From: Catenulispora acidiphila DSM 44928
GTDB taxonomy: Bacteria; Actinomycetota; Actinomycetes; Streptomycetales; Catenulisporaceae
Assembly (NCBI RefSeq): GCF_000024025.1
Contig: NC_013131.1
Location: forward strand, 4,712,001 to 4,776,000
Reading direction: 5' to 3'
DNA length: 64,000 bases
Shown here: piece by piece, positions 42,787-61,470 of the stretch
Numbering within the stretch: position 1 is the first letter of the stretch
Layout: every line of letters starts with the position of its first letter
Notes under the pieces: generated by a model
What the model was told of the DNA's origin: nothing
The model's database searches: none
The model's input: only the letters and a program-made list of their open reading frames with translations
Made by a program: the position numbers and the translations under genes

Positions 42787-43917
42787 TCACAGCTCCCGAA
42801 CATGCGGCAACACCTCGTCGACGAACAGTCGCAGGCTTCGCCGCATCGTCGCGCCGTCCTGTCCACCGTAGTCGATATTCCACAGACACACGTCGGCAGA
42901 AAGTACCTGGCGCAGTTCCTTGATCTGCTCGACGACCGACTCCGGAGAGCCCACGACCGCCACGCCGTCGTGCCGCAACTGGTCCTGACCGATCCGGCCG
43001 AACGCCTGTTTCATGTTCTCGTAGCCTTTGTAACTGCTGGAGGACACGCCGGTCCAAGCGTTCGCGGCCTCGGCGGTGACGTCCAGGTACTCCTGGATGT
43101 GCGGGATCGCGGTGTCGTAGGCCTCTGCGTCGGTCTCGGCGACGTAGAGCGGGACGCTGAACGCCACGCGCGGGCGCACATCGGTGCCGGCATGGGCTTC
43201 GGCGAAGGTGTCCAGGTACAGCTGGATCAGGTCGCGCGACCAGCCCAGCTCGCTGCGCAGCGGCGGCGGGGAGATCAGGACGCCGAAGCCCTGCCGCGCC
43301 AGCCACTGGAAGCTCTCCGGCGAGCGGATCGCCGCGCCCCACACCGGCGGATGCGGGCTCTGCACCACCGGCGGCAGCGAGGTCGCCTCGGTGAAGGAGA
43401 AGAACTCGGTGTCCTCGCTGACCCGCTCCTCGGTCCACAGCCGCAGCACCGCGCGGATCGTCGCCTCGAACCGGTCCCGGCTGGAGTCCAGCGGCACGCC
43501 GAGCGCCTGGAACTCGTACGGCAGCCACGCCCGGGCGAAGCCGACGTCCAGCCGCCCGCCGCTGAGCGCGTCCAGCATCGCGGTGTGCGCCGCGAGCTGC
43601 ACCGGGTGGTGGAAGGCGGGCAGGACGCAGCCGGTCATCAGCCGGATGCTCGTGGTCTGCGCGGCCACCGCCGCCAGGAATGTTAGCGGGCTGGGGCAGT
43701 AGCCGCCGTAGTTCCCCAGGTAGTGCTCGGTCATCTTGACGTAGTCGAACCCGGCCTCGTCGGCGAGCCGGGCGATGGCCAGGACATCGGTGTAGTAGTC
43801 GCCGGCCGAGCGCTTCTCCGGACGGCAGTCCGGCAGGAAGGACACGCCGTGGCGGATGGTCCTGGTGGTGGTGCTCTGCTCGGTCGCAGCGGCGGTCTGG
43901 TCGGTGGGGTTCGTCAT
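42787..43917 (-). CDS. LLM-class flavin-dependent oxidoreductase of the RiPP cluster
   Basis: A 376-residue luciferase-like TIM-barrel monooxygenase. Typical patterns are IARLADEAGFDYVKMTEHYLG near the start, LMTGCVLPAFHHPVQLA, SGGRLDVGFARAW and the flavin-contacting PHPPVWGAAIRSPES. It overlaps the M20 hydrolase by 4 bp (ATGA), so the two are co-translated and diverge from the precursor gene. Oxidation of the maturing peptide or of a released fragment is inferred from context. FMNH2 or F420 as cofactor cannot be told from sequence alone. Confidence 0.82.
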   Translation of the reverse strand: MTNPTDQTAAATEQSTTTRTIRHGVSFLPDCRPEKRSAGDYYTDVLAIARLADEAGFDYVKMTEHYLGNYGGYCPSPLTFLAAVAAQTTSIRLMTGCVLPAFHHPVQLAAHTAMLDALSGGRLDVGFARAWLPYEFQALGVPLDSSRDRFEATIRAVLRLWTEERVSEDTEFFSFTEATSLPPVVQSPHPPVWGAAIRSPESFQWLARQGFGVLISPPPLRSELGWSRDLIQLYLDTFAEAHAGTDVRPRVAFSVPLYVAETDAEAYDTAIPHIQEYLDVTAEAANAWTGVSSSSYKGYENMKQAFGRIGQDQLRHDGVAVVGSPESVVEQIKELRQVLSADVCLWNIDYGGQDGATMRRSLRLFVDEVLPHVREL

Positions 43918-45173
43918 GATGCGGATATCCCTTCAGAGGTGGGAACGTCGTCGGAAACCGTGGTGAGCGTTGGAGATGGCTGACGGGTCAGGAAGGCGAG
44001 CGCCGCTTCGGTCATCGCGGCGATGCCGGTCCGCAGAGTCCGCACCGGATCGGGGGCGAACGCCGCGCTGTGGTTGGCCGGCACGTTCGCGGCCTTCTCG
44101 ACCAGCGACGTCCCGGCGGCACGGCTCCAGACCTCCGGTGCGGTCGCACCGACCATCCAGTAGACCGACGGGACCGGATCGGCCGAATCGGGCAGCGTGA
44201 GCAGCGGGAAGTCGTCGGTGGCCAGCGACGGCGGCAGGGTGAGCACGTGCCCTGATCCGAAGCGGGGCAGATGCGCCTCCCGGACGATGCGGCCGGCGAC
44301 CGGATCGTTCACCCCGGCCGGGGACGCGGAGAGGACCGACAGCTCCGGCAGGCGAGGGCATCCGGCTCGGCGCGCGTGCTGCTGCGCGATCCGCACCAGG
44401 TCGGCGACCGCCTCCTGGAGCACCGCTGTGGTCGGCGCGCGCACGCTGATACCGAGCGTCACCTCCTCCGGGATGACGTTGGGACGGCTGCCGCCGCAGA
44501 TCGTGCCGACGGTGACGGCAGCCGGCAGGCGCGCGCCGATCCCGGCCGCGTCCAGCACGATCGCGGCGGCCACCGGCACCGGATCCACCGCGAACTGCCG
44601 CAGTCCGGCATGACCGCCGCGACCGTGCACGCGCAGCTCCAGCTGCCGGCTCGCGGCGGTAACCGCGCCCGGGGCATGTGCGACCCAGCCCGCCGGCAGC
44701 GGCGTGAGGTGCTGCGCGAGCGCGACATCGGGGCGGCCGCAGCGCTCGTACAGTCCGTCGGCGAGCATCGCGGCGGCGCCGGAGAGCTCCTCCTCCGCCG
44801 GCTGCCCGAGGACGATCAGCGTTCCGCGCCAACTGCTACGATGCCGCGCCAGCAGCTCTGCGGTTCCGGCCAGGCACGCCAGGTGCGCGTCGTGCCCGCA
44901 GGCGTGCATCGCTCCCAGCGCCTCGTCGGCGGCGTAGGCGAGCCCGGTCTGCTCGGCGATCGGCAGCGCGTCCAACTCGGCGCGCAGCAGCACCGCCGGC
45001 CCGGCGCCGTTGTGCAGCACGCCGACCACGCCGTGGCCGCCGACACCGGTCCGCACCGTGAGCCCGCATCGGCGCAGCCGGTCGGCGAACCGGGCCGCGG
45101 TGCGCTTCTCGGCTCCGGCGAGCTCAGGGTACTGATGCAGGTCGAAGTAGAGCTTCAGGGCTTCGTCGAGCAT
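43914..45173 (-). CDS. M20-family amidohydrolase of the RiPP cluster
   Basis: A 419-residue M20D-type metallo-amidohydrolase. Metal-binding motifs are MHACGHDAH, GQPAEEE and ALAQHLTPLP; the dimerisation insert contains GRGGHAG. ATG 45173 is chosen because AGGAGG sits 5-6 nt upstream; the open frame further upstream crosses the divergent promoter. The SARP-type heptamers overlap its leader. In RiPP clusters such enzymes may trim or deamidate the product or give immunity by hydrolysis; which applies here is unknown. Confidence 0.8.
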   Translation of the reverse strand: MLDEALKLYFDLHQYPELAGAEKRTAARFADRLRRCGLTVRTGVGGHGVVGVLHNGAGPAVLLRAELDALPIAEQTGLAYAADEALGAMHACGHDAHLACLAGTAELLARHRSSWRGTLIVLGQPAEEELSGAAAMLADGLYERCGRPDVALAQHLTPLPAGWVAHAPGAVTAASRQLELRVHGRGGHAGLRQFAVDPVPVAAAIVLDAAGIGARLPAAVTVGTICGGSRPNVIPEEVTLGISVRAPTTAVLQEAVADLVRIAQQHARRAGCPRLPELSVLSASPAGVNDPVAGRIVREAHLPRFGSGHVLTLPPSLATDDFPLLTLPDSADPVPSVYWMVGATAPEVWSRAAGTSLVEKAANVPANHSAAFAPDPVRTLRTGIAAMTEAALAFLTRQPSPTLTTVSDDVPTSEGISAS

Positions 45174-45183
45174 GGCGTCCTCC

Positions 45184-45212
45184 TGTCGGCCAGGTGTCGG
45201 CGTTCTGTCGGG
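45184..45212. promoter_or_regulatory. SARP-type operator: three heptamers with an 11-bp period
   Basis: TGTCGGC (45184-45190), TGTCGGC (45195-45201) and TGTCGGG (45206-45212) are separated by 4-bp spacers, one helical turn apart on the same face. SARP activators of actinomycete antibiotic clusters bind direct heptamers with this spacing next to a -35 region. Just downstream TTCGGC (45213-45218) and TAATGG (45236-45241) are 17 bp apart and could be the precursor promoter. A SARP gene lies at 60203-61018. Confidence 0.65.
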
Positions 45213-45297
45213 TTCGGCGACAGCGGCTCCTGACGTAATGGACTCGTCGGTCCGGCAGGAGCCGGGCGGACCGGATGGAAAGCTTGGGAGGCACACC

Positions 45298-45534
45298 ATG
45301 GAAACCTTCGACACCCCCACCTCGGGCACCCTGGTCTCGCTGGCGATGGAGCTGACGGCGCTGGACTCGGAGACCTTCGAGATCCAGGACTACGCCGAGT
45401 ACGACGGTCTGATGGGTGCGGCGGGCAAGGCCCCGGTCGGCGGCGTCCAGGGCGGCGGCGACGGCAACCACGCCACCAGCACCAGCTCCACCAGCACCTG
45501 CTCGACCTGCTCCACCACCAGCTGCTGCGCGTGA
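45298..45534 (+). CDS. RiPP precursor peptide (thiazole/oxazole type, thiazolylpeptide-like)
   Basis: A 78-residue precursor with GGGAGG 7 nt before the ATG. The leader (about residues 1-50) is acidic and hydrophobic (LVSLAMELTALDSETFEIQDYAEYD), as in thiopeptide and LAP leaders. A Gly-rich hinge (GGVQGGGDGNHA, 48-59) is followed by a core of only Thr, Ser and Cys plus a last Ala: residues 60-78, with 7 Thr, 7 Ser and 4 Cys (68, 71, 76, 77). Cys and Ser/Thr are substrates for YcaO azoline formation, and Ser/Thr for LanB dehydration, both encoded nearby. The cleavage point is not evident. It is the only rightward gene of the core cluster and has its own promoter region. Confidence 0.88.
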   Translation: METFDTPTSGTLVSLAMELTALDSETFEIQDYAEYDGLMGAAGKAPVGGVQGGGDGNHATSTSSTSTCSTCSTTSCCA

Positions 45535-45541
45535 GGTCCGC

Positions 45542-45579
45542 GGTCGCGGTGCCCGCCGGAGACCGGCGGCACCGCGACC
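45542..45579. terminator. Bidirectional terminator between precursor and YcaO genes
   Basis: GGTCGCGGTGCC(C)GCCGG (45542-45559) pairs with CCGGCGGCACCGCGACC (45563-45579): 17 bp with one bulged C and a 3-nt loop. It lies 7 nt after the precursor stop and 28 nt from the convergent YcaO stop, so it can end both transcripts or stabilise the short precursor mRNA. Confidence 0.75.
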
Positions 45580-45607
45580 GGGCTTTCGCCCCAGGCGCGA
45601 GAGGCCG

Positions 45608-47551
45608 TCACGGAAAGGGATGCGGCACCATGTGCAGCTCCTCAGCGGTCAGGTCGCTCTCGCGCAGACCCGCGTGGCGCAGCGCCGAGAACATCCGCGG
45701 AGCCCGCAGCGCGCGCTGCCGCCCCCAGCCGAAGTCGATCGGCAGCAGTCCCGGCGCGATGACCCGGACTCCCGACAGACCGGCTGCCTGCTGCTCGGCG
45801 CTGGTCTGATCGACCACGATCACGTCCGATCCCCGGCGTGCCACCTCGTCCACCAGGAAGCGGACGTCGTCGGCCAAATCGTCGGTCGCCGGACGGACCC
45901 GCAGCCACTCGTGGTAGAGCTCTGCGACAGGCATCGGATCGGCGTGGCGCGTGTAACGCCAGGCGTGCTCCTGCATCTCCGGCAGCCCGAACAGCGCCGG
46001 ATGATCGGCCAGCCCGCTAACCAGCGAGAAGTCCCGCGTCATCGCGACCAGCTCCTCACGGCGCGCACGCACCCGATGCCGCATCGAGGGGATGTAGGTC
46101 AGGATCTCGCCGAGGGCGGCCTCCACCGCCGCCGCCGGGTCCATGCCCGCCCCGGCGGCGAAGGAGAACAGCCCGTCGCCGCCGTCCCGCCGGCGCGCCA
46201 CGCCGGTGACGACCGGTACCGGCAGGTCGATCCGGTTGTCGAACAGGCGGACGTCGTAGCCCTGAAGCCGAGCCCGGCTCAGCATCGCGCGCGCCGTGCG
46301 GTCCAGCGAGCCGGTGTCGATCTCGGGCAGCAGCGCGCCGCCGTACCAGGCGAGCAGGAAGGCGTCGCGCTCGATCAGCTCCAGCAGACCGAACAGGACC
46401 GCCTCGGTCAGGCATCCGCCGCTCGCGCAGCCGTTGGAGCACTCGAAGGAGAACAGCTCCGCGCCGCCGTCCCAGCCGTAGAACGCCAGGCGCACCGGGA
46501 CCAGCACGGACCGCTTGTCGCGCAGCGAGTAGCCGGGGACCCACGGGATCGTCCGGTCCGGGTCGAACGGCGTGAGGTGTTCGTCCTGGAGGTAGGAATC
46601 GGCGCTGTAAGCCGTGCAGTCACTCGGATTCAGAGCTCGGTCGGCGAGTTCGGTGTAGCTGCCGACGACCAGCCCGGGCCGCCTGCGCATCGTCCCGGCG
46701 TGCCGTTCCAAGCCCTCGAACACCGCCAGGCGGGCGCTCGCCGCGTAGGAGTTCGCCTGACCGCTCCAGCTCAGGTCGTGCAGCCCGGTCGGTCCGCGCA
46801 CCGCCGCCGAGCCCGCGACCGGGGCGGTCGTCGGCGAGGCCAGCGCGGCCGACGTCGCCGGTGCGAGCACTCCGCAGACCGTGTTGACCAGCGCTTCGAC
46901 CGGGACTGCGAAGTCCTCGGGATGGCGCAGTCGGTACGCCTCGGCGCTCGGCTTGCGCGGTGCGCCGAGATCGAGGTCCGGCGGCTCGGGGTCGAGGTCC
47001 CCGCAGCTGGGGCAGCGCGAGTCAGGCAGCAGCGCCGCGGCCGTCATCATCAGGGTTCGGATGTCGATACGCCAGACCTTCGGCAGGTCGCCGGCCGGGA
47101 CCAGCTCGGCGTGCCGGAAAGCGGCCCACGCGGCGGCGGCGAGCTGGTCGCCGACGTCCGGCCACACGCCGGCCCGGTGCGCGCCGGGGCTGGTTTCGAG
47201 CAGGTCGCGCTCATGCACCGGCTGCATGCGCTGCAGTCGCAACGCCAGACAGTGCCCGCATCCCCGCTCAGACCTCTGCGACCGCGCCGACCGCGCCGAC
47301 AGCTCCGACCGCTCCGATCGCGCCGACCTTCTCGGGCCGATGAGAACGGCCCGCGAGGTCAGGAAGATGTCCGCGTCGCGCAGATCCGGACGCGCCTCAC
47401 CGGCCTCGCGCAGCGGCGAGCGCTCAAAGGCCAGCAGGTCCTCGCCGCCGAGTTCGACGACCGTCGGGACCTTATCGGGCCCGCGACCGTCGCGCGCCGC
47501 GTACTCGCCGAGCAGCCGGGTCAGCTCCTCGACGGGAGTCAGGGTCCTCAT
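45608..47551 (-). CDS. YcaO cyclodehydratase domain protein, distal copy
   Basis: A 647-residue YcaO protein of the azoline-forming (TOMM D) type. Two CxxC pairs (98/101 and 180/183) may bind zinc. ATP-site motifs are NGCASGG and LLELIERDAF (391-400); VDQTSAEQ and LLPIDFGW follow. The C-terminus ends MVPHPFP, matching the proline-rich PxP tail needed by azoline-forming YcaOs. All expected acidic ATP ligands appear present, so it is probably active. Residues 75-96 are an Arg/Ser/Glu repeat (ARSERSEL, SARSARS) absent from the other YcaO. It starts inside the permease stop (ATGA) and is the last gene of the leftward operon. Confidence 0.87.
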   Translation of the reverse strand: MRTLTPVEELTRLLGEYAARDGRGPDKVPTVVELGGEDLLAFERSPLREAGEARPDLRDADIFLTSRAVLIGPRRSARSERSELSARSARSQRSERGCGHCLALRLQRMQPVHERDLLETSPGAHRAGVWPDVGDQLAAAAWAAFRHAELVPAGDLPKVWRIDIRTLMMTAAALLPDSRCPSCGDLDPEPPDLDLGAPRKPSAEAYRLRHPEDFAVPVEALVNTVCGVLAPATSAALASPTTAPVAGSAAVRGPTGLHDLSWSGQANSYAASARLAVFEGLERHAGTMRRRPGLVVGSYTELADRALNPSDCTAYSADSYLQDEHLTPFDPDRTIPWVPGYSLRDKRSVLVPVRLAFYGWDGGAELFSFECSNGCASGGCLTEAVLFGLLELIERDAFLLAWYGGALLPEIDTGSLDRTARAMLSRARLQGYDVRLFDNRIDLPVPVVTGVARRRDGGDGLFSFAAGAGMDPAAAVEAALGEILTYIPSMRHRVRARREELVAMTRDFSLVSGLADHPALFGLPEMQEHAWRYTRHADPMPVAELYHEWLRVRPATDDLADDVRFLVDEVARRGSDVIVVDQTSAEQQAAGLSGVRVIAPGLLPIDFGWGRQRALRAPRMFSALRHAGLRESDLTAEELHMVPHPFP

Positions 47552-48324
47552 GCCTCACGGCTCCAGCGGAAGTACCGCGCGGCCAGCCCGGCGAACAAGG
47601 CGGTGAAGCCCAGCAGCGCCGCGCAGGACACCAGCACCGTGGAGATCCCGCCGGTCCCGCCGACCGGTCCGACCGTGCCGTTGACCAGGTAGCGCAGCGG
47701 CAGCACCCAGGAGACGTCCTGGATCCAGCGCGGGCTCAGGCTGATCGGGTAGAACGTGCCGGACAGGAAGGCCATCGGCGTCATCACGCAGTTGGCGATC
47801 GCCGCGATCGCCTCCGAGGACGAGGCGACCACGCTGACCAGCAGTCCCAGCGCGAAGAACGCGGTCACCCCGGCGAGGATCGCCGGGATCGCCAGCACCG
47901 CCCGGCCGGACAGTCGCAAGCCGAACACCGGCAGCATCGCCACGCCGACGAAGAACACCGCCTGCACCAGCGCCACCGCCACGGCGACCAGGAACCGTGA
48001 TCCCATGACCGTGGGCAGCCGGGTCGGGGTCATGCGGATCACCCGGAGCACCTCGGTGCTGCGCCAGTGCATCAGGGTGTAGGCGACGCCGAACAGCGCC
48101 GAGGTCGCCACCGCCCAGGACAGCACGCCGGCCGCGGTGGAGGCGATGAAGCCGCCGCCGCCGACGGTCTGGTCGCGGAACAGCACGCCGAAGACCACCA
48201 GGAAGATCAGCGGGAAGGCGAAGGTGAAGAACAGCGTCACCTTGTCGCGGTAGTAGGAGCGGGCGATGGCCACGCTCAGGGCACCCAGCGGGGTGCCGGA
48301 GGCGTTCGGGTTCCCGGCGCTCAT
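47548..48324 (-). CDS. ABC-2 type permease of the RiPP cluster
   Basis: A 258-residue ABC-2 membrane protein with six hydrophobic segments: VTLFFTFAFPLIFLVVFGVLF first, and the ABC-2 signature MTPMAFLSGTFYPISLSPRWIQ near residues 180-201. It overlaps its ATPase gene and the YcaO gene by 4 bp each. With the M50-ATPase fusion it should form the exporter of the mature peptide, also giving self-protection. Confidence 0.88.
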   Translation of the reverse strand: MSAGNPNASGTPLGALSVAIARSYYRDKVTLFFTFAFPLIFLVVFGVLFRDQTVGGGGFIASTAAGVLSWAVATSALFGVAYTLMHWRSTEVLRVIRMTPTRLPTVMGSRFLVAVAVALVQAVFFVGVAMLPVFGLRLSGRAVLAIPAILAGVTAFFALGLLVSVVASSSEAIAAIANCVMTPMAFLSGTFYPISLSPRWIQDVSWVLPLRYLVNGTVGPVGGTGGISTVLVSCAALLGFTALFAGLAARYFRWSREA

Positions 48325-50546
48325 GCCGCGAAATCCTTTCCGGTCAAGGCGAGATAGACGTCTTCCAAGGACGCGGTGCGGGTCCTGATGCCCTGCACCC
48401 CGGCGATCTCGGTGACCGCCGACAGAACCAGTCCGGGAGCACGGGTGGCGATGACGGTCGAGGCGCCCTCGGTCCGGGCCTCCTCGACACCGGGCAGCCC
48501 GCGCGCCGCGCCGACGCTGATCCGCTCGCAGGGCACGAACACCCGCACCGGCTGGTCCAGGGAGTCGACCAGCTCCAGCGGGTCGCCGACCGCGACCACC
48601 CGGCCGCCGCTCATGATCGCGACCCGGTCGCACAGCGCTTCGGCCTCGTCGAGCTGATGGGTGGTGTAGACGATGGTCTTGCCCCGGTCGCGGATCTCGC
48701 GCATCAGGTCCCACAGGTCCAGCCGCGCCCGCGGGTCCAAGGCGGCGGTCGGCTCGTCCAGGAACACCAGGTCGGGGTCGTGGACCAGCGCCGCGGCGAT
48801 GCCCAGGCGCTGCCGCTGCCCGCCGGAGAGCCGTTCGACGCGGGTCCCGGCGGACGCCGTGAGCCCGAACCGCTCGATCGCCTCGCGGGCCGCGCGGCGC
48901 GGCGCACCGTAGAGGGCTGCGACGGTCTCCAGGTGCTCCAGCGCGGTCAGGCGGGTGAAGAACGCCGAAGCCTGGGTCTGCACGCCGATCCGCAGCAGCA
49001 CCCGGGAGTCCCGCTGCCAGGGTTCGGCGCCGAGGACCGACACCGTGCCGGAGTCCGGACGGCGCAGACCCTCCAGAATCTCGATGAGCGTTGTCTTTCC
49101 GGCGCCGTTCGGACCGAGGACGCCGAAAAGCTCGCCCTCGGCGACGCTCAGGGAGACGTCGCGGCACGCGGACACGGCGCCGTAGGTCTTGCGGACGTGC
49201 TGCACGACGATCGCTGCCGTCGCGGAGTCTGTTATCGCGTCCATGCGCACCTTCTCGCGGGTGGACAGGCTGGTGGACAGGCGGGCAGGAAGGGGGAGTG
49301 GTTCGGTGGCGACCGGTTCCGGCGTCTCGACCGGGGACGGTGCCTCCGTCACCTGAGCCGGACGCTTGCCACGCAGGCGTTTCACCAGCGGTGGCGCGAC
49401 GTTGAGCAGCACCAGCGCACCGATCACCAGCCAGCCATACGGACTGGGGAACGCGCTGAGCAGGTACCAGCACACGCCGGAGACAGCTGGCAGCACGAAA
49501 CCGGCGGCGATGAGCGGATAGCAGAGGTAGGCGACGACGGCGCGCCTCGGGTAGCGCCGGGCTGCCGGGTTCCGGTGAACCAGTTGGCTGATGTAGACGC
49601 CGCTGGAGACCGCCAGCCGGGAGATGTTCAGCGCGTGGCTGAGCATCAGATAGCCGTCCAGCGGCGGGAGCGGCAGCAGGTTGAACAGGATGCCGGCGGT
49701 CTTGTACATCAGCAGCATCGCGATCGCGGTACGTGTCGCGTCGCCGGCGGGAAGCGCTGCCCACAACACATAGAACGGGACCTGGAAGGCGACATCCGCC
49801 GCGACCCCCGCCGCAGCCGTGGCTACGCGCCGCCACCGGGACCGGAACAGCGGCATGTCCTCGACGGTGCAGTAGAAGCCCAGTGCCGGCAGCCGGTAGC
49901 GCAATCCGACCTCGGTGGCGCGGCCGCCGAAGCGCTCGCCGATCACGCCGTGACCGAGTTCGTGAATCAGCAGGCTCACACCGTAGAGACTGAAGACCAT
50001 CGGGATCAGCGACGGCTGCTTGGCGAAGTGCCAGGACTCACGCGCCAGCTCGCCGACGTGCGCCAGGATCACCGCTTCGACCGCGATCAGCGCCAGCACC
50101 ACCGGGATCGCGACGCGGCGGGTCAGAACCGGCCGCAGCACGCGCAGCAGGAAGCCGATCACGGGCTCGGGGTCGAACATCACGATGTCGCCGGCCGGGA
50201 ATCCCTTCTTGGACTCCCGCTTGACGCGCTTCGCCGCCGCGGCTGGCTCCGCCGCCTCGCCACCAGAGAGCAGACCCCTGCTGCCGAACAGGCTCAGCAG
50301 TTGCAGCCACGCGGTCTCACCGAGCCGCTTGTCGAACGCCGCGGCGTAGTCGACGCCGATCGCGTCGAGGGTACGGATTCCGTCCAGACGCTCTAGGACG
50401 AAGTGCTCGCGTGGTCCAAGCTCGTATCGGGCTCCGGTGCTGGTGTTCTTCACCGGGTACACCAGTGCCGCGCCGCGCAGCATGCCCGGTCCGATGGCGA
50501 CGTGTGCCGCGCGGGCAGGGCTCTGATCGAGCCAGGTGGCGGTCAT
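48321..50546 (-). CDS. M50 zinc metalloprotease fused to an ABC ATPase
   Basis: One uninterrupted 741-residue frame. Residues 20-95 look like a PqqD/RRE-type winged helix (YPVKNTSTGARYELGPREHF). Residues 130-390 are an M50 site-2-protease-like membrane domain with HELGH (195-199) and the third-ligand region LLPLPPLDG (290-298). A Pro-rich linker (400-430) leads to a full ABC-2-type ATPase (Walker A GPNGAGKTT, LSGGQRQR, LVFLDEP, H-loop His630). An internal ATG at 49244 with GAAGG upstream could also make a free 307-residue ATPase. The design resembles peptidase-containing ABC exporters: leader recognition, cleavage and export in one chain. ATGA overlaps on both sides. Confidence 0.85.
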   Translation of the reverse strand: MTATWLDQSPARAAHVAIGPGMLRGAALVYPVKNTSTGARYELGPREHFVLERLDGIRTLDAIGVDYAAAFDKRLGETAWLQLLSLFGSRGLLSGGEAAEPAAAAKRVKRESKKGFPAGDIVMFDPEPVIGFLLRVLRPVLTRRVAIPVVLALIAVEAVILAHVGELARESWHFAKQPSLIPMVFSLYGVSLLIHELGHGVIGERFGGRATEVGLRYRLPALGFYCTVEDMPLFRSRWRRVATAAAGVAADVAFQVPFYVLWAALPAGDATRTAIAMLLMYKTAGILFNLLPLPPLDGYLMLSHALNISRLAVSSGVYISQLVHRNPAARRYPRRAVVAYLCYPLIAAGFVLPAVSGVCWYLLSAFPSPYGWLVIGALVLLNVAPPLVKRLRGKRPAQVTEAPSPVETPEPVATEPLPLPARLSTSLSTREKVRMDAITDSATAAIVVQHVRKTYGAVSACRDVSLSVAEGELFGVLGPNGAGKTTLIEILEGLRRPDSGTVSVLGAEPWQRDSRVLLRIGVQTQASAFFTRLTALEHLETVAALYGAPRRAAREAIERFGLTASAGTRVERLSGGQRQRLGIAAALVHDPDLVFLDEPTAALDPRARLDLWDLMREIRDRGKTIVYTTHQLDEAEALCDRVAIMSGGRVVAVGDPLELVDSLDQPVRVFVPCERISVGAARGLPGVEEARTEGASTVIATRAPGLVLSAVTEIAGVQGIRTRTASLEDVYLALTGKDFAA

Positions 50547-51664
50547 GACGCGGCCTCCGGCTCTGACTCCGACTCCGACTCCGACTCCGACTCCGGGGCA
50601 GCGTGCTCCGCCTCGCGCAGCGCGCGGGCCAGGATCCGGCCGAGGAACGCCTCGTCGGTGAGCGTCATGCCGAGCCGGTTGTTCGTCATGTGCAGGTACG
50701 GCAGCAGCAGACGCCGCGCCGCCGCGCCCGCGTCGGTGATCACCTGGTTGTCGGAGCCGTCCCAGGACTCGAACACCAGCGCGCCCGCCTCGGCCAGCGC
50801 GCCGATCCGTGCCCGCACCTCGATGCAGTGCTCGGCCCAGGCGCCCAGCACGCCGGGCAGACTCCCGGCGGCGCCGCGCGCGAACGCCTCGCGCACCGCG
50901 GCGAACCGCTGGCTGATCCCGGGACCGGTCTTGTCGTAGGCGCTGTCGTAGTCCTCGTCGGTCACGTCGCCGTCGGTGTCGAAGGCACGGCGCCAGAAGC
51001 CGTGGTAGCCCTCGAAGAAGTCGGCGCACGTTGCGGCATCGGCTTCGAACGCCGCCGCCGTCACCATCATCAGCTGTGCGGCGATGCCCAGCCGGATGGA
51101 GCGCAGGTGCGTGTTCATCGTCCGCAGCAGGTCCACGACCAGGTCCGAGGAGTGCTCGAAATGCCACTCGGCCACCGCGACCCCGGCCGCGCCGCCGTAC
51201 TTGCCGTACTCTGGCTCGTACGGCTCACGGCTGTGGGTGTTGTTCTCCCGCAACCGCATCCGGCCGTTCTCGTCGAGGTAGACCGCGCGCTGCTCGTCGG
51301 TGAACTCGAAGTCGAACATCTTGGTGTAGACGTCGGACAGGAAGTCCGGGTCGGCCGAATACAACGCGGGCCGCCTTCGCAGGTACGCGTCGATCGCTGC
51401 TTCGGCACGCTCCAGGACCGTCTCGGTCGCGGCTTCCGACGACGGCTGCAGGCGCAGCCGCAGATGCGTGCCCTCGACCCAGTAGTTGATGAAGAACCAG
51501 CTGGAGAGCAAGCCGTCCTGGCGCAGTCCGGCGATCAGAGGCCTGATGGACTCGGTGAGCATGGACAGCCGGACCGCGCCGTAGAAGATGTGGACGGCCT
51601 GCCACGGCCCGGGTTCGGACGGCGCGTCCGGGGCGGTCGCCGGCTCGGCGGCGAGCGTGGTCAT
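50543..51664 (-). CDS. Thiopeptide-type biosynthesis protein (LanB C-terminal, glutamate-elimination domain)
   Basis: A 373-residue protein of the SpaB_C/thiopeptide-type bacteriocin family. The diagnostic beginning is WQAVHIFYGAVRLSM and GLLSSWFFINYWVEGTHLRLRL. In split LanB systems this domain removes glutamate from glutamylated Ser/Thr to give dehydroalanine/dehydrobutyrine; related proteins catalyse the [4+2] pyridine-forming step of thiopeptides. As the only such domain here next to a LanB N-protein, elimination is the more likely role. The C-terminus is an acidic SESESESE tail from a simple repeat. ATGA overlaps with both neighbours. The frame is open upstream but belongs to the LanB gene. 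Confidence 0.87.
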   Translation of the reverse strand: MTTLAAEPATAPDAPSEPGPWQAVHIFYGAVRLSMLTESIRPLIAGLRQDGLLSSWFFINYWVEGTHLRLRLQPSSEAATETVLERAEAAIDAYLRRRPALYSADPDFLSDVYTKMFDFEFTDEQRAVYLDENGRMRLRENNTHSREPYEPEYGKYGGAAGVAVAEWHFEHSSDLVVDLLRTMNTHLRSIRLGIAAQLMMVTAAAFEADAATCADFFEGYHGFWRRAFDTDGDVTDEDYDSAYDKTGPGISQRFAAVREAFARGAAGSLPGVLGAWAEHCIEVRARIGALAEAGALVFESWDGSDNQVITDAGAAARRLLLPYLHMTNNRLGMTLTDEAFLGRILARALREAEHAAPESESESESESEPEAAS

Positions 51665-54474: not shown

Positions 54475-54486
54475 AGCTGATCCCCC

Positions 54487-56082
54487 TCAGCCGATCTCGT
54501 AGCGGAAGTCGGCAGGCCGCTCGCGCTCCCGGCCGACCATGAGGATCAGCAGCGGCGCCTCGTCGGTGCCCTCGAGCCCTAGCTCCTCGACGTAGGCGGG
54601 GTTGTCGAAGCCCAGCGCCGCGCCGCAGCCGAGCCCGAGCCCGGCCGAGGCCAGGTAGACCGCCTGCGCGATCGCGCCGACCACGGCGTTCACGAGGCGG
54701 TACCCGCGGTCGCCGACGCTGTCGTACAGCGCGTCGGCGCGCACGGACGGCACGATCACCGCACCGGCCTCTTCGAGGTTGTAGTTCTCCAGGAAGTACG
54801 TCGGCTGCAGGAAGTCCGCAGGCGATCTGTCCGTCACGCGCAGCAGGCGGTTCGCGGCGGGGTCGTACTCATAGGCAGCCGGCGCGACACCACGGACGTG
54901 GTTGACGAAGACGTAGAACTTGGCCAGCTCCAGCCCGCGCTCCGGTTCGGCGACGTCGCACGCGAACGCGGCGGCTTGCGAGGCGGCCGCCAGGATCGCG
55001 GCCAGCTCGGCGCCGGTGGTCGGGACCGCGCCGCTGAACCGGCCGAAACTGCTGCGGCGTGCCCGGAACGCCTGCCGGGCCGGCGCCGGCGGCAGGGGTT
55101 CGGGCAGGTCCACGACCGGACGGTCCTCCGGCGGCCGGTGCGCGGCAGCCGGATCCAGCGCCGGCGGTTCGGGCCGGGGCGCGGGCGTCATCGTGGCCTG
55201 ATGGACCGCGATGTTCAGGTCGAAGGTGCGCACGCGGCGTGACCGCTCCTGCTCGCTGAGACGGACTCGAGGCGGGTACTCGGGATTCTCGCCTGTCTTT
55301 ACCACTGGCCCGGTCCAGGGCAGCGGCACGACCGCGAAGACGCCCTCCTGCTCCGGCGGTACCCCGAGCAGGTCCCCGAGGCGCCGGTCGTCGAACCAGA
55401 ACGCCGGGGTCAGGTGCAGACCATGGTCCGCCAGGAACATCTGCCAGCTCTGCAGAATCGTCCCGACGTCCATCGTGACGGCGTGGTAGCAGAAGTTCTG
55501 GTACTTGAAGGCGTTCTGCCAGAACTTCAGACCGAGCACCAGGAACTGGTCGGTGTCGGTGGGCACGGACTGCGGTGCGTCTCCCAACGCGGCACGGATC
55601 TCAGCCGTCACATCGCCGGTGAGCAGCCGGCGCATCTCGTGATGCGGCGGCGAGTAGTGGTAGAGCCCGGGCAGCACCGGGCCGCGCGCGCCGGAAGCCC
55701 AATAAACGCTCACCGGATACAAGCCGCCGCCGGAAGCGGTACCGCGCCACCAGTTGGCGTCGGCGTAGTCCGGCAGCGTGACCAGGTCGTTGTTGGCGTG
55801 CGGAGCCAGACGGCGCCCGAGGTAGCCGTAGGAGTGACGGAGCATGTCCGCCAGCAGCGGGACCGAGAAGCCGCCGGGCTGGTCGCCGCGCTGGTTGCCG
55901 GACTGGTCGCCAGCCGGATCGGGCGTCGGCACCGATTCCATCGGCAGCGGCAGCCGTTCGGCGTCCGGGTAGTACTTCAGATGCCGGGGCTTGTCGCCCC
56001 AGTCCGGTTCCAAGCCGATCGGCTCCATCGGCACCCGGGCCCGGTTCATCACCGTGCGCAGATAGTCGTGGGCGGTGCCCAT
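54487..56082 (-). CDS. SagB/ThcOx-type azoline dehydrogenase, double nitroreductase
   Basis: A 531-residue FMN enzyme that oxidises azolines to aromatic azoles. It contains two nitroreductase-like units, about 75-290 (HSYGYLGRRL, ASGGGLYPVSVYW, FKYQNFCYHAVTMDVG) and about 335-531 (RRSSFGRFSG, ENYNLEEAGAVIVPS, VVGAIAQAVYLASAGLGLGCG). They are joined by a Pro-rich linker. The duplicated architecture is that of larger SagB family members. A GDQ/GNQ repeat lies near residues 58-70. The AGGAG ribosome site fits ATG 56082. Confidence 0.88.
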   Translation of the reverse strand: MGTAHDYLRTVMNRARVPMEPIGLEPDWGDKPRHLKYYPDAERLPLPMESVPTPDPAGDQSGNQRGDQPGGFSVPLLADMLRHSYGYLGRRLAPHANNDLVTLPDYADANWWRGTASGGGLYPVSVYWASGARGPVLPGLYHYSPPHHEMRRLLTGDVTAEIRAALGDAPQSVPTDTDQFLVLGLKFWQNAFKYQNFCYHAVTMDVGTILQSWQMFLADHGLHLTPAFWFDDRRLGDLLGVPPEQEGVFAVVPLPWTGPVVKTGENPEYPPRVRLSEQERSRRVRTFDLNIAVHQATMTPAPRPEPPALDPAAAHRPPEDRPVVDLPEPLPPAPARQAFRARRSSFGRFSGAVPTTGAELAAILAAASQAAAFACDVAEPERGLELAKFYVFVNHVRGVAPAAYEYDPAANRLLRVTDRSPADFLQPTYFLENYNLEEAGAVIVPSVRADALYDSVGDRGYRLVNAVVGAIAQAVYLASAGLGLGCGAALGFDNPAYVEELGLEGTDEAPLLILMVGRERERPADFRYEIG

Positions 56083-56113
56083 GAGGAGGTCTCCTAACTG
56101 TCCTGCGAACGCT

Positions 56114-58006
56114 TCAGGGGAAGGGGTGCGGAGCGGGGTTCGGCGTCGTGGCGCCGGTGAGGGCGTGCAGGCGCGGCATCAGCGGCGCGCGCTGCCGGGT
56201 CCAGCCGAAGTCGATCGGCACGAGCCCCGGCACGATCACGCCGACCGTGGACAGACCCAGGCGGCGCTGTTCGGGCGCGGTCTGGTCGACGACGATCGTG
56301 TCGAAGCCCGCCGCCGTGACGTGCCCGACGCATGCGGCGAGGTCTTCGCGCAGGTCGCCGGTACGCGGCGGCGCTTCACCGAACGCCTGCTTCAGCGGCA
56401 GTAGAGCGGCGCGCGGCGCGTCGAGCAGGAAGGAGGCATACTGCGCCATCTCCGGCAGTCCGTAGAGCCGGGAGTGGTCGTGCAGCCCGATGACCTGCGT
56501 GAAATCGGCTGCCATCGCCCGCAGCTCGGCTTCGTCGCGCTCGGCTCGGCGCCGGGCGTGCAGCGCGTCGGTGGCGATCTCGGCCAGCCCGGCGGCCAGC
56601 GCCTCCTCCGGGTCGAGGGCGGCGCCCGCGCCGAAGCACAACGCGCCCAGACCTGGGGTGCGGCGTACCGCGACCGCGGTGATGACCGGGACCGGGAACG
56701 CCAGGCGGGTGTCGAAGAACCTTGCTTCGTACCCGTACATCGCCAGGCGCTCGACGAGATGTCTGGTCTCGGCGTGCTCGCTGGTGCGGGGATCGAGCTC
56801 GGGCAAGCTCTGGCGTCCGAACCACGTCAGTAGGAACGCGTCGCGTTCGATCAGCTCCAGCAGTCCGGACAGGACGGCTTCGGCGACGGAGCCTCCAGAG
56901 GCACAGCCGTTCGAGCACTGCTGCACGAAGCGCTCGGCGTGCGGCTCGCAGTGGTAGTAGCTCATGACGAGCGGGACCAGGATCTCGCGGTCGTCCCGCA
57001 GCGAGTACCCGCGGACCCAAGGGATCTTGCGGTCCGTGGCGAACGCCTTGGTCTCAGGGTCCTGTTCGTAGAACTCCGGCGCGTACATGCCGCAGTCGCG
57101 CGGATCGAGCGCCGGCACGGTGAGGTCGTCGAAAGCGGCGACCAGCGGCGGTTCCTGGCCGCGCGGACGCAGCCCGGCGTAGCGCTCGAAGCCCTCCAGG
57201 ACCCCGGTTCGCAGGCTTCGACGATAGGTGTCGCGATGCCCGCCCCAGAACACCTCGTACAGCCGGCCGCCCGCGCGCTCGGCGATGACGCCGAGGACCG
57301 AGGACGTGGTCGGCAGGTCCAGCTCCTCGATCTTCACCTGTCCCAGCACCCCGCACACCGGGTTGACCAGCGCGTCGGCCGGCAGGTCGAAGGCGTCGGC
57401 GTCCCGGACCCGGGACGAGCCGGGCTTGGAGCGCGGAGCCGGCGGCAGATCGGCGATCGGTGTCCAGGCGGTCTGGTTGGCGCGACCGGTCTGGTTGTCG
57501 CAACTGGCGTGGCTGCGGCAGTCCGGGCAGTCCGGATCGGCCATTACCTGGGTTCGCAGGATCCTGGCTTCGACAAGATCGAGTTGGTAGACGAAGGGCT
57601 CTGCGGTGCTCGATCCGGTGCTCGGCGCCTCGTCGATCAAGTGCAGGAGCAGCGCGGCGGTCGCGTCGAGCGCGAAGTCGGTGAGCTGCGGCGGCATTCC
57701 GGCGGCGTGCGTGGGACCGCCGATCTCCAGCGCGTCGCGGACCAGGGGGTCCCGGATCCGCTGCCAGCGCCGGGCCAGGCAGCGTGCGCAGGACTGCTCG
57801 CCGAGCGGTCCGGCGATGATGTGGCGTCCGGTGAAGTGGAGCGGGATCGAGCTGTTGTCCATGCCGCTGCTGGTTTCGGGGGCGGAGATCGGGCCGTCCA
57901 ACTCGTCCCGCACGCCGAGCGGCGCGACGACGGCGTCCAAGCCGGTCCGCTGCCGCAGCCCTTCTTCGAAGCGGGCGCAGGCGGACGCCCACGGGAGCAC
58001 GGACAC
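56114..58006 (-). CDS. YcaO cyclodehydratase domain protein, proximal copy
   Basis: A 630-residue YcaO protein related along its length to the copy at 45608-47551. CxxC pairs occur in SCARCLARRWQRIRD and DPDCPDC. ATP-site motifs are SNGCASGG and LLELIERDAF; VDQTAPEQ and LVPIDFGWTRQRAP follow, and the tail ends PAPHPFP. It appears catalytically complete. GTG 58006 follows the previous stop after one base; GTG 58000 is a second possibility. It is next to the RRE/ThiF-like gene and probably forms the main cyclodehydratase with it. Confidence 0.87.
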   Translation of the reverse strand: MSVLPWASACARFEEGLRQRTGLDAVVAPLGVRDELDGPISAPETSSGMDNSSIPLHFTGRHIIAGPLGEQSCARCLARRWQRIRDPLVRDALEIGGPTHAAGMPPQLTDFALDATAALLLHLIDEAPSTGSSTAEPFVYQLDLVEARILRTQVMADPDCPDCRSHASCDNQTGRANQTAWTPIADLPPAPRSKPGSSRVRDADAFDLPADALVNPVCGVLGQVKIEELDLPTTSSVLGVIAERAGGRLYEVFWGGHRDTYRRSLRTGVLEGFERYAGLRPRGQEPPLVAAFDDLTVPALDPRDCGMYAPEFYEQDPETKAFATDRKIPWVRGYSLRDDREILVPLVMSYYHCEPHAERFVQQCSNGCASGGSVAEAVLSGLLELIERDAFLLTWFGRQSLPELDPRTSEHAETRHLVERLAMYGYEARFFDTRLAFPVPVITAVAVRRTPGLGALCFGAGAALDPEEALAAGLAEIATDALHARRRAERDEAELRAMAADFTQVIGLHDHSRLYGLPEMAQYASFLLDAPRAALLPLKQAFGEAPPRTGDLREDLAACVGHVTAAGFDTIVVDQTAPEQRRLGLSTVGVIVPGLVPIDFGWTRQRAPLMPRLHALTGATTPNPAPHPFP

Positions 58007-58007
58007 C

Positions 58008-60206
58008 TCAGCGCCGTCCGGTGAGCAGGACGCGGACCACGGTGATCCCCGCACGGGACAGGTCGTCCGAGCCGATCGGCGCCGCGTAGGCGTCCCGGTC
58101 GGCACGGCGCAGGGCGTCGAGGGCGTCGGGCCAGGCCGAGGCGGCGTCCAGTGAAGGGCGGATGTCGCCTTCGACCGGCAGTGCGAAGGGATCCAGGGCC
58201 CTGATGAGCGGATCGCCGCCGTCCACCGGCACGCCGGGTTCCTGGCGTCCCAGCTGGACGCGTCCGACGAGGTCGCACAACGCTTCGCGGGCCGCGCGCC
58301 GCCACGCGACGTCGGCGCTGATCGCCCACACCGGCCGGTCCTGCGCCTCGTCGTGCGCGCGGGCGGCGAGCACGTGGACGCCGGAGTCCGGATCGCTCAG
58401 GTCGAGCAGTTCGACGCCGAGGTCCAGGTTCGAGGCGGACTCGGCGAGGAAGCGGAGTTCGGCGTCATCGTCCAGTCCGGGGAGTTTGACACGCGCCGCC
58501 GGGCGGTCGTGGCTCAGGACACTGCGAAGCGCGTCCAGGCTCAGCGCCGTGGACAGGGCACGCCCCAGGGCTTCGGCGGTCGAGCGACCCGCACCGGTAC
58601 CTGCGGCTGTCCGCAGGTAGACGCCGTCGCGGTTGGCGGGACCGAAGGTGCGCACGGCTCCCGCCGGGACCAAGACCTCCGTCCCGGACAGCAAAGACAG
58701 GGCCTTGATACGTTCGGTGGTGTCGGCGGGGATGCCGCTGCCCGAGGCGATCGCCAGATCTGTTGCCTCGACACGGATCGGTGCGTCGTCTGTGGCAAGG
58801 CGGGGCGGAACCACGTGCTCGGCGTAGATCTCGGCGGCACGGTGCAGTGCGGACAGGCGCGCGCCGACGACGTGGTGGACGTCGAAGGCGGTGACGGCGC
58901 GGCGCTTCGTGTGGTCGAGCCCGAGACGGATCCGCGCCGCCTTGACCGGCAGCTGGGTGATCGTGTCGTCGTCGAACGCGGTGAACACGCCGACGGACGG
59001 CCGGACCAGCACCGAGCGCGCGGTCAGCTCGTCGTACATCTCGTCGGCCTGGTCGGCGTCGGCGACCGTGGTGGCGCGCGGCGACTCCGGCTCGACGGCT
59101 TCGAGGGCTTCGACAGACTCAGCGGTCTCAGTGGATTCGATGGACTCACCGGTCTGCGAGCAGTAGGGACAGCGCGGATGCGGCGACAGCGGCTCGGTGG
59201 TGCAGTCCATCGAGTCCAGGTCCTGGACGATGACCTGCTCCTCGGTCTCCGGCGGCAGCGCCCCGGTGGTCAGCCGGAAGACCTCGAAGGCCAACAGGTT
59301 GCCGAGCATCGCGGCCAGCGGACGGCTCGGCGCCGAGGTGGTGGCCGACGGCACGATCAAGCTGCTCCACATGTCCGCCGCCGGTCCGGGCGGCTGGTTG
59401 GCGCCGAAGCGCAGCGCCGCGCAGACCCAGCAGCCGGGGCGGGCGCCGCGGGTCAGCGGTCCGACCAGCGCGCGGTCGCCGACGACCGCGAGCGGCAGCA
59501 GGCTGACGCCCTCGGGCACGCCGGCCGCCAGCAGCGCTGTGGTCTGGCGGATGCCGGAAGTCGTGACCACCACGTCGTAGCCGCGCAGGTCCTCCCACGT
59601 CACCTCGCCTTCCGGCAGCGGCAGCAGCCTCACCGCGCAGCCGGCGGCGGCCAGCTGCTCGACCTCCGCCGAGAGCTGGACCGAACCGGAGGCGGCCACG
59701 GAACCGGCCGCGCCGCCGCGCACCGCGACCGCTTCGGCGCCGTTGCGGATCAGGCTCAGCACGCACCACTGCGCGACAGCATCGTCGCCGAGCACTGCGA
59801 CGTGCGCGGTGCGGAAGCGCAGGAAGCGCTCCACGGCTTGCCCGGCGTAGTGGTCCACGTAGTTGATCTGCGCGGCGAAACGCTCGGCGACGGCGGGCGG
59901 CAGGCGTGGCGCGTCCGCCTGCTCCGGCGGGACGTCGCGGGCGAAACCCCGCTCCAGCATCGCGGTGACCAGCTCGGCGACCATGCCGCGCGGTCCGTCT
60001 CCCAGGCCGTCGCAGAGTTCGGCGACGCTGTGCCGACCGGTCAGGCGCGGCACGATCGCGCAGGCGAAGCGGTAGGCCGATGCCGACGCGAGGTGGAACC
60101 CGGCGTGGGAGTTGTGGAAGAGCACGCCGGTGGGCGTGCGGGTGTAGAGCACGTCCTGCTTGACTCGCGGGCGGGTGCCGGAGACCTGATCGTAGGCGGT
60201 GGTCAC
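58008..60206 (-). CDS. RRE and ThiF-like partner protein with a degenerate YcaO-like C-terminal half
   Basis: A 732-residue protein. Residues 12-92 are a PqqD-like RRE winged helix that binds the leader. Residues 130-350 are an E1/ThiF-like domain (AVLGDDAVAQW, two CxxC pairs at 259/262 and 346/349). A Glu/Ser/Thr/Ala repeat linker (353-372) follows. Residues 385-732 align by eye with YcaO (LSALHRAAEIYAEH; GAGRSTAEALGRALSTALSLDAL where active copies have SGGSVAEAVLSGLLELIERDAF), but the acidic ATP ligands and PxP tail are missing. It thus looks like a leader-docking scaffold. GTGA overlap with the SARP gene; AGGAG ribosome site. Confidence 0.83.
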   Translation of the reverse strand: MTTAYDQVSGTRPRVKQDVLYTRTPTGVLFHNSHAGFHLASASAYRFACAIVPRLTGRHSVAELCDGLGDGPRGMVAELVTAMLERGFARDVPPEQADAPRLPPAVAERFAAQINYVDHYAGQAVERFLRFRTAHVAVLGDDAVAQWCVLSLIRNGAEAVAVRGGAAGSVAASGSVQLSAEVEQLAAAGCAVRLLPLPEGEVTWEDLRGYDVVVTTSGIRQTTALLAAGVPEGVSLLPLAVVGDRALVGPLTRGARPGCWVCAALRFGANQPPGPAADMWSSLIVPSATTSAPSRPLAAMLGNLLAFEVFRLTTGALPPETEEQVIVQDLDSMDCTTEPLSPHPRCPYCSQTGESIESTETAESVEALEAVEPESPRATTVADADQADEMYDELTARSVLVRPSVGVFTAFDDDTITQLPVKAARIRLGLDHTKRRAVTAFDVHHVVGARLSALHRAAEIYAEHVVPPRLATDDAPIRVEATDLAIASGSGIPADTTERIKALSLLSGTEVLVPAGAVRTFGPANRDGVYLRTAAGTGAGRSTAEALGRALSTALSLDALRSVLSHDRPAARVKLPGLDDDAELRFLAESASNLDLGVELLDLSDPDSGVHVLAARAHDEAQDRPVWAISADVAWRRAAREALCDLVGRVQLGRQEPGVPVDGGDPLIRALDPFALPVEGDIRPSLDAASAWPDALDALRRADRDAYAAPIGSDDLSRAGITVVRVLLTGRR

Positions 60207-61018
60207 AGCACTTCTCCTATTCGGATGCGCGATTCGGCCCAGGGCCGCGGGGTCAGTTCCTCGCCGCGCAGGATCGCCAGCTCCAGTTGCTGGAGCGGTC
60301 GCCCGGGGAAGACCCCGAGCTCCTCGCCGAGGTAGTCCTTGATGCTGCGGTACTCCCACAGCGCGTCCGCCTGGCGCCCGGTGCGGTACAGCGCCTCCAT
60401 CAGCTGCTCGCGGAAGCGTTCGCACGCCGGGTAGGCGCGCGTGGCCGAACGCAGGTCGGCCAGGATGTCGCGGTGGCGTCCCAGCCCCAGCTCGACGTCG
60501 AAGCGGCGCTCGGCGGTGCGCAGCCACTCCTCCTCCAGCACCGGGACCTCGTCGCGGTGCAGCGCCTCGGACTGGACGTTGGCCAGCGGTCCGCCCTGCC
60601 ACAGCGCCAGGGCTCTGCGAAGGTGGCGCAGCTCGGCTTCGGGCTGCTCGGCGCTTCCGGCGGCGGCGGTCAGCTCCCGGAATTCGGCCAGGTCCAGCGT
60701 CGCGGCGGTGACCGGCAGCCGGTAGCCGCCGGGCAGGGTCTGGATGATGGTGTCGTCGGCGCCGAACTTCCGGAATATCCGGCGCAGCCGAAGAATGTAG
60801 GCCTGCAGGGTCGCTTTCGTGGTGTCGGCGGCGTTCTCGCCCCACACCGCGTTTTGCAGATAGTCGACCGGTACGACTCTGTTGGGCCGCAGAAGCATCG
60901 CCGCCAGAAGGGACACCGGTTTCGCCGTCGGCAGGATCACCGTCTGCGCGCCGTCGTCGATGCTTACCGGCCCGAGCACGGTGAAGCGCACGGTGATCCG
61001 GTCAGGTCGATCGCTCAT
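60203..61018 (-). CDS. SARP-family pathway-specific activator
   Basis: A 271-residue small SARP: an OmpR-type winged helix at about 10-98 (VRFTVLGPVSIDDG, then TTKATLQAYILRLRRIFRKFG and QTLPGGYRL) and a bacterial transcriptional activation domain at about 105-255 (DLAEFRELTAAAG, then GRQADALWEYRSIKDYLGEELGV). It has no extra ATPase. It is the first gene of the leftward biosynthetic operon. SARP proteins bind direct heptamers at 11-bp spacing, and exactly such a site lies in the precursor/M20 promoter at 45184-45212. Autoactivation of the operon is likely, but no such repeat is obvious before this gene. Confidence 0.9.
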   Translation of the reverse strand: MSDRPDRITVRFTVLGPVSIDDGAQTVILPTAKPVSLLAAMLLRPNRVVPVDYLQNAVWGENAADTTKATLQAYILRLRRIFRKFGADDTIIQTLPGGYRLPVTAATLDLAEFRELTAAAGSAEQPEAELRHLRRALALWQGGPLANVQSEALHRDEVPVLEEEWLRTAERRFDVELGLGRHRDILADLRSATRAYPACERFREQLMEALYRTGRQADALWEYRSIKDYLGEELGVFPGRPLQQLELAILRGEELTPRPWAESRIRIGEVL

Positions 61019-61432: not shown

Positions 61433-61470
61433 GGTACGTACGTGGCGCGCGGGCCGGCCACGTACGTACC
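61433..61470. promoter_or_regulatory. Perfect 14-bp inverted repeat upstream of the HTH regulator
   Basis: GGTACGTACGTGGC (61433-61446), 10 nt, GCCACGTACGTACC (61457-61470). A related half-site, GGTACGTGGGTAC, follows at 61491. It lies 24 nt after the secreted peptide gene and about 140 nt before the HTH gene, so it could be a terminator for the first or an operator for the second; the extra half-site favours an operator. Confidence 0.6.

Follow-up and report, generated by a model that had tools for sequence, protein, structure and literature searches.

The god cluster, which directs goadsporin biosynthesis, is described as having a precursor, a YcaO protein, a dehydrogenase and a split LanB (GodF/GodG), with no [4+2] enzyme; the product is a linear peptide carrying azoles and dehydroalanine (Dha) (PMC5303826, PMC4603692). 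GodF is reported to act only after the azoles are present (PMC5303826). The system as described there has one fused YcaO, a GNAT acetyltransferase (GodH), a transporter with a peptidase domain (GodB) and a 19-residue core. A version with two YcaOs was predicted as coryneazolisin types 1 and 2, for which lanthipeptide-like dehydratases, no [4+2] protein and a core made almost wholly of Cys, Ser and Thr are described (Cox 2015, PMC4603692). Here, we describe a gene cluster from Catenulispora acidiphila DSM 44928 that resembles both. It was found in a stretch of 64,000 nucleotides (contig NC_013131.1, positions 4,712,001 to 4,776,000; "the window"), and it encodes a heavily modified small peptide. 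The cluster is real and complete. The product is probably a linear azole/dehydroamino-acid peptide without a pyridine, made by goadsporin-like logic, and would belong to the ribosomally synthesized and post-translationally modified peptides (RiPPs).

Like the god cluster, the locus combines YcaO, SagB and split LanB proteins with no [4+2] enzyme. Unlike it, the locus has two YcaOs, an F protein, an M50-ABC fusion, an M20 peptidase and an LLM oxidoreductase, and family searches found no GNAT domain (GodH-type acetyltransferase) among the genes at 42787-60991. In the coryneazolisins as described, one YcaO is discrete, the other forms a fusion with a C protein, and Ile occurs in the core (PMC4603692), whereas both YcaOs of the window are fused and paralogous and the core lacks Ile; this separation is by description only. 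Thiopeptides of the thiomuracin, lactazole and berninamycin types share with the window the F protein, YcaO, SagB, split LanB and a TIGR03892 precursor, and some, such as geninthiocin, are also described with two YcaOs (PMC6306032). The window differs from them in having no pyridine synthase over the profile cut-off, in its own YcaO clades and in its M50 protease.

The genome is a single contig of 10,467,782 bases (10.47 Mb; completeness 100). The cluster consists of a minus-strand gene run (42787-60991) and a plus-strand precursor gene:

60203..60991, minus strand: SARP-type activator (Trans_reg_C + BTAD; Pfam PF03704 118.5 bits, PF00486 47.2 bits), with an alternative start possible at the ATG at 61018

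58008..60206, minus strand: F protein, leader-binding, ocin-ThiF-like (TIGR03882 64 bits, cut-off 36.9)

56114..58006, minus strand: YcaO1 cyclodehydratase, TIGR03882 region and SagD domain, C-terminal PHPFP (TIGR03604 284.7 bits, cut-off 219.25)

54487..56082, minus strand: SagB-family azoline dehydrogenase dependent on flavin mononucleotide (TIGR03605 123.3 bits, cut-off 78.4)

51661..54474, minus strand: LanB glutamylation protein, TbtB/GodF-like (Lant_dehydr_N 145.7 bits)

50543..51664, minus strand: SpaB_C glutamate-elimination protein, TbtC/GodG-like, the only one of the cluster (Lant_dehydr_C 150.1 bits)

48321..50546, minus strand: M50 zinc protease (N-terminal, HELGH) fused to a DrrA-type ABC ATPase, putative leader peptidase and exporter (PF02163 40.1 bits, PF00005 106.9 bits)

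47548..48324, minus strand: ABC-2 permease (PF01061 85.4 bits)

45608..47551, minus strand: YcaO2 cyclodehydratase, C-terminal PHPFP (TIGR03604 312.1 bits)

45298..45534, plus strand: precursor peptide, 78 aa (TIGR03892 73.5 bits, cut-off 25)

43914..45173, minus strand: M20 peptidase/amidohydrolase, adjoining the precursor (TIGR01891 199.3 bits, cut-off 153.75)

42787..43917, minus strand: LLM flavin-dependent oxidoreductase (PF00296 196.3 bits)

All named genes are long open reading frames with a high GC content at third codon positions and with database matches (Pfam, NCBIfam), and the gene set named in the original prediction is thus present. Two of its details required correction. It had called for an exporter, and the ABC ATPase and permease (47548-48324) are indeed there, but the ATPase at 48321-50546 is part of a protease fusion. 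It had also placed the start of the cluster at 43914; the M20/LLM pair is present, but the LLM gene (42787-43917) lies outside that limit. To this we add that both YcaOs carry a TIGR03882 leader-binding region ahead of the SagD domain.

The central question is whether the SpaB_C protein eliminates glutamate or closes a pyridine ring. Homologs were collected from 391 genomes of the order, and those scoring >340 bits (the next score is 216) define the family. It is found in 67 of the 391 genomes, about one in six, and in two of the ten listed genomes of the genus. No pyridine synthase ([4+2] cyclase) exceeding the NF045556 cut-off was detected in the cluster, as had been predicted, or in the whole genome, and no second SpaB_C gene was seen in the cluster. 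NF045556 has two matches in the genome, both to family SpaB_C proteins (94 and 84 bits; cut-off 325). PF14028 has three: the SpaB_C of the window, that of a second cluster (C1:4139721-4140746) and one elsewhere at 76.6 bits. A second SpaB_C serving the cluster from elsewhere was set aside after these genome-wide searches. Every gene of the run has a family assignment, so that no unassigned long frame is left to hide a cyclase.

The comparison set comprised 13 clusters whose pyridine synthase exceeds the NF045556 cut-off, drawn from 13 of the 14 genomes with such a match, and eight clusters with a weaker cyclase-side partner. Each of these 21 clusters has two SpaB_C proteins within about 20 kb, while the window and its 18 near relatives have one; L050 has a further, unlike SpaB_C about 8 kb away. 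Seventeen of the near relatives were taken from the other 66 genomes that carry a family SpaB_C, and the eighteenth is the second cluster in the window's own genome. In an unrooted tree of 64 SpaB_C rows (the partial match of L006 was excluded), the 21 cyclase-side rows lie behind a branch with support 99/99, and the 19 rows of the window's family form one clade (100/96). In approximately unbiased (AU) tests, trees joining the family to the over-cut-off cyclases were rejected (p 0.00042), and so were trees joining it to the remaining cyclase-side rows (p 0.0008). The clustering with pyridine synthases that would have contradicted the prediction is thus not seen.

The residues point the same way. 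H325, E338, N329 and R71 are present in all 19 family rows and in all 21 elimination-side partners of the cyclases; E152 and E166 occur in 19/19 and 20/21, respectively. At H325, E338 and N329, the 13 over-cut-off cyclases have Tyr, Arg and a mixture, and at R71, E152 and E166 they have Asn/Val, Arg and Ala/Thr. N329 is the less clear-cut discriminator, since five of the 13 cyclases also have Asn. The eight weaker cyclase-side partners differ cleanly at 325 and 338 only (Tyr at 325 in 7/8, Arg at 338 in 8/8). A rough H...NRL pattern is found in 43 of 47 SpaB_C proteins, and H325, N329 and R330 are invariant in 16 aligned rows. Among solved chains searched by profile, 5EHK (titled as MibB) aligned with similar YDPEYERYGG and HMTCNRL stretches. 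At residue 60, all 19 family rows have Asn and all 21 elimination partners have Arg.

For NisB, one study reports glutamylation without elimination in the R786A, R826A and H961A variants (PMC4979651), and another reports no dehydration for H961A but full dehydration for R775A (PMC4341554). According to these reports, elimination needs H961 and R786 (PMC4979651, PMC4341554). By our own placement, which uses motif and spacing, H961 would correspond to H325 and R786 to R71 of the window protein. By residues and tree, the single SpaB_C is probably of the glutamate-elimination type. A cyclase identity of the protein at 50543-51664 was set aside on tree, residues and AU tests; the fold result given below counts against this verdict. 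The linear, goadsporin-like product that had been proposed from the gene set remains the likely one.

The precursor (45298-45534) is preceded by a ribosome-binding-like site, GGGAGG. Its leader carries a SETFEIQDY motif, and its tail is TSTSSTSTCSTCSTTSCCA. The Thr/Ser/Cys-only core described in the original prediction is an unbroken run of 18 residues (T60-C77) followed by a final Ala. The precursor belongs to the thiazolylpeptide family TIGR03892, with a score above those of seven relatives tried (20.2-49.5 bits, one of them under the cut-off), and precursors of the same type are matched by the NCBIfam "thiazolylpeptide-type bacteriocin" models.

Conservation was assessed in 47 loci: the window, the second cluster of the same genome, 17 relatives and 28 named loci (L108, on the same contig as L038, was excluded). 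A leader of the LESETFEI.DY type with a Ser/Thr/Cys tail is found in 41 precursors from 36 of these loci; 21 of the precursors were aligned. Of the 11 loci without a precursor, six end before its expected place and five do not. The usual core in the relatives is STSCSSTSTCSSTTSTTSCSA, with a Ser/Thr/Cys tract of about 20 residues. In the window and Catenulispora rubra, the glycine-rich spacer is longer and the peptide ends in SCCA; Streptacidiphilus has short cores, and in other lines the precursors stand in tandem and vary in their tails. Loci L149-L151 have three or four tandem precursors each, with differing Ser/Thr/Cys-rich cores.

Most relatives show strong conservation of the Ser/Thr/Cys core. 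This was analyzed at the codon level for 32 of the 41 precursors (31 distinct), selected by an SCSA or SCTA ending and without L120; the nine left out include that of the window, and the pairs are uncorrected for kinship. Between core codons -15 and -5, 1653 pairwise codon differences were counted, and only 114 of them (0.07) alter the residue. The value is 244 of 2294 (0.11) when the last four codons, which the selection favours, are included. It rises to 799 of 1837 (0.43) for codons -21 to -16 and to 2137 of 3575 (0.60) for the leader; random single-base changes would give 0.74-0.77. Nei-Gojobori ratios are 0.74 (core) and 0.46 (leader), AGC/TCN serine switches being counted as replacements. 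More tentatively, a core that hardly varies in most members, from Streptomyces to Actinokineospora, may reflect one conserved function, e.g., signalling, rather than the variation of an arms-race antibiotic.

The family is widespread, and its gene order is stable. The order F-YcaO1-SagB-LanB-SpaB_C-M50/ABC-permease-YcaO2 is the same in 18/18 near relatives, with M20 near in all; some of these loci have split or fragmented genes. The closest named relative is C. rubra DSM 44948, with the same order and an 82% identical SpaB_C. Two Streptacidiphilus loci have YcaO2 before the ATPase and the precursors downstream. The more distant loci L055, L056 and L057 lack the gene set of the near relatives. 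Among 394 genomes sampled from the class, 19 have a SpaB_C of >380 bits, and all 19 also have the precursor (in G010 at only 22.9 bits); both profiles were made from family members. The precursor occurs in 20/394, the additional one (G045) coming from a 3.7 kb contig that also has M20 and LLM. Since SpaB_C and precursor co-occur in 19/19, chance is excluded. A scan with exact 8-residue words gave at least 29 named loci, among them nine from Streptomyces and four from Salinispora, with others from Micromonospora, Actinoplanes, Dactylosporangium, Nocardioides, Actinokineospora, Cellulomonas, Kitasatospora and Streptacidiphilus.

The motifs of the modifying enzymes are likewise kept. YcaO1 has a PxPxP end in 46/46 family members; YcaO2, which is 40% identical to YcaO1, has PxPxP in 43/46 and PxP in 46/46. 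In a tree of 68 YcaO rows (a quick method, with support from the Shimodaira-Hasegawa-like approximate likelihood ratio test only), the YcaO1 and YcaO2 proteins from 20 family loci fall into one clade each (99 and 100), and 21 YcaOs of thiopeptide clusters are set apart from these (87). Both clades join the lone YcaO proteins of L055 and L056 at a node with support 86. This is consistent with one old duplication on the family line. The SagB Lys-Tyr motif is present in 45/47 members, both misses being frames of 212 and 205 aa. A rough LanB motif of our own making is found in 36/47 loci. The single solved chain matched by the LanB protein is 6EC7 (lantibiotic dehydratase domain protein, E 8e-33), which we take to be TbtB. 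No Pfam family matches the F protein, and its single match over a cut-off is to TIGR03882; TIGR03693 gives 78.4 bits, below the 561.9 required. Its C-terminal half contains a degenerate YcaO-like stretch (TIGR03604, E 5e-12 at residues 498-647), and a rough C..C pattern occurs in 41/43 family F proteins. The YcaO profile also caught five frames overlapping F proteins of relatives. HExxH and a second DG motif are found in 46/46 members having the M50 part. A decayed M50 domain had been considered, but the initial HExxH count of 12/46 reflected a best match that often lay in the ATPase half.

Several observations weigh against a linear product. The best match of the SpaB_C protein in the profile search of solved chains is TbtD, and its predicted overall fold is closest to TbtD/PbtD. 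Further, a split placing the family and all cyclases on one side stands unrejected (p 0.3); as the tree is unrooted, it does not by itself show the family to be closer to the elimination partners. An over-cut-off NF045556 match occurs in 14 of the 391 genomes, and none of these overlaps with the 67 carrying a family SpaB_C, but only about 2.4 overlaps are expected by chance, so that this absence alone is weak. The predicted fold leans to TbtD, and fold alone does not separate elimination from cyclase proteins. It does raise the alternative of a true thiopeptide, in which the SpaB_C protein both eliminates and cyclises, or in which an undetected enzyme elsewhere closes the pyridine ring. We consider this unlikely. 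The match of 89.5 bits is far below the cut-off and falls inside the range of nine listed elimination-side partners (81-131 bits), the cyclase residues are absent, grouping with the cyclases is rejected, all genes of the run are otherwise assigned, and the genome has no over-cut-off cyclase.

There is also a small chance that the compound class has already been characterised chemically, as spongiicolazolicins. Spongiicolazolicins A and B, from a marine Streptomyces, are described as linear azole RiPPs of 29 and 28 residues (PMC8838263) and are named together with goadsporin (PMC10676384); they are likened to the predicted product by description only. With a usual Ser/Thr/Cys tract of about 20 residues, these lengths would fit only if about eight leader residues were retained. 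A cross-linked, lanthionine-like product, formed by addition of Cys to dehydro residues, could also suit the LanB proteins and the Cys, Ser and Thr of the core. This is very improbable, as family searches found no LanC-type cyclase among the cluster genes, and the intact motifs of both YcaOs and of SagB suggest that Cys ends up as azole. Least probable is a decayed, silent remnant: the frames of the window are open, the YcaO PxPxP, SagB Lys-Tyr, HExxH and SpaB_C residues are all kept, and C. rubra retains the gene order. For dehydrazoles (carnazolamide), azoles and dehydro residues are described in one RiPP, with dehydration by LanMbC (DUF4135) (PMC10676384); DUF4135 has no match among the cluster genes, the dehydration genes of which are of the LanB type.

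For a linear azole/dehydroamino-acid peptide, we infer the following pathway. The SARP protein would turn the operon on. The F protein would hold the leader while YcaO1 and YcaO2, together with SagB, convert Cys and part of the Ser/Thr residues to azoles; that one YcaO makes the thiazoles and the other the oxazoles is a guess. As in goadsporin, azole formation would come first, followed by dehydration of the remaining Ser/Thr, and then by leader removal and export. For dehydration, the LanB protein would glutamylate these residues using Glu-tRNA, and the SpaB_C protein would eliminate glutamate, giving Dha and dehydrobutyrine. Cleavage of the leader at the membrane probably falls to the M50 protease (other RiPPs are reported to be matured by M50 enzymes, PMC10885120), the ABC transporter would export the product, and the M20 protein may trim it. 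LLM might add an oxidative step in some members only. LLM and precursor stand together in C. rubra, G368 and G045 as they do in the window, and in G368 and G045 the M20 gene recurs with them; no LLM was seen in the other near relatives examined. LLM relatives of >370 bits occur in 13/391 genomes of the order. Of nine further ones, four (L172, L176, L178, L179) are near YcaO, LanB or SpaB_C-type genes, three (L171, L174, L180) are near a match to a thiopeptide protein, perhaps its dehydrogenase part, and two (L175, L177) are near none of these. LLM is thus probably a RiPP tailoring enzyme that is accessory in some members.

The original prediction considered that the gene combination may be undescribed. 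As a principle it is not: goadsporin has this logic, and the coryneazolisins are its predicted two-YcaO version (Cox 2015, PMC4603692). Nor is the combination unique, given the number of genomes with a family SpaB_C and the constant gene order. What appears to be new is the specific widespread family with duplicated, fused, paralogous YcaOs, an M50-ABC unit and a conserved Ser/Thr/Cys core; no product or description of it was found in the open-access papers searched. If the product is linear, these clusters make no thiopeptide although their precursors are matched by the NCBIfam thiazolylpeptide-type bacteriocin models, and a compound class for which those papers yielded no product would be a common RiPP of these bacteria. 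It is tempting to speculate, although we hold this only tentatively, that this is a large, ancient actinobacterial family mislabelled as thiopeptides, in which two diverged YcaOs and a split LanB divide the Ser, Thr and Cys of the core between them and convert almost all of its residues to azoles or dehydro residues, giving an almost fully unsaturated peptide ribbon. The Ser/Thr/Cys-only core would be a clean system for studying the division of residues between azole-forming and dehydrating enzymes.

The second cluster of the same genome (C1:4129-4147 kb; L004, L005, L137) has the usual core, and its SpaB_C is 52% identical to that of the window. L055 and L056 are sister clusters with one YcaO and no M50 or M20 match; their candidate precursor has a core quite unlike the usual one, SCTTTGSHCHDTIL. 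Plasmid NZ_CP116225.1 of the oral bacterium Actinomyces oris (L184) carries a distant version (36% identity), with four tandem precursors having Ser/Thr/Cys-rich tails, two YcaOs and an M50-like protein. In the window, a perfect 14-base inverted repeat with a 10-base loop (61433-61470) lies between the SARP gene and 61612, and is possibly a terminator or operator. An APH-family phosphotransferase gene (62464-63372) adjoins the cluster, and a 44% identical relative is found beyond M20 in L118.

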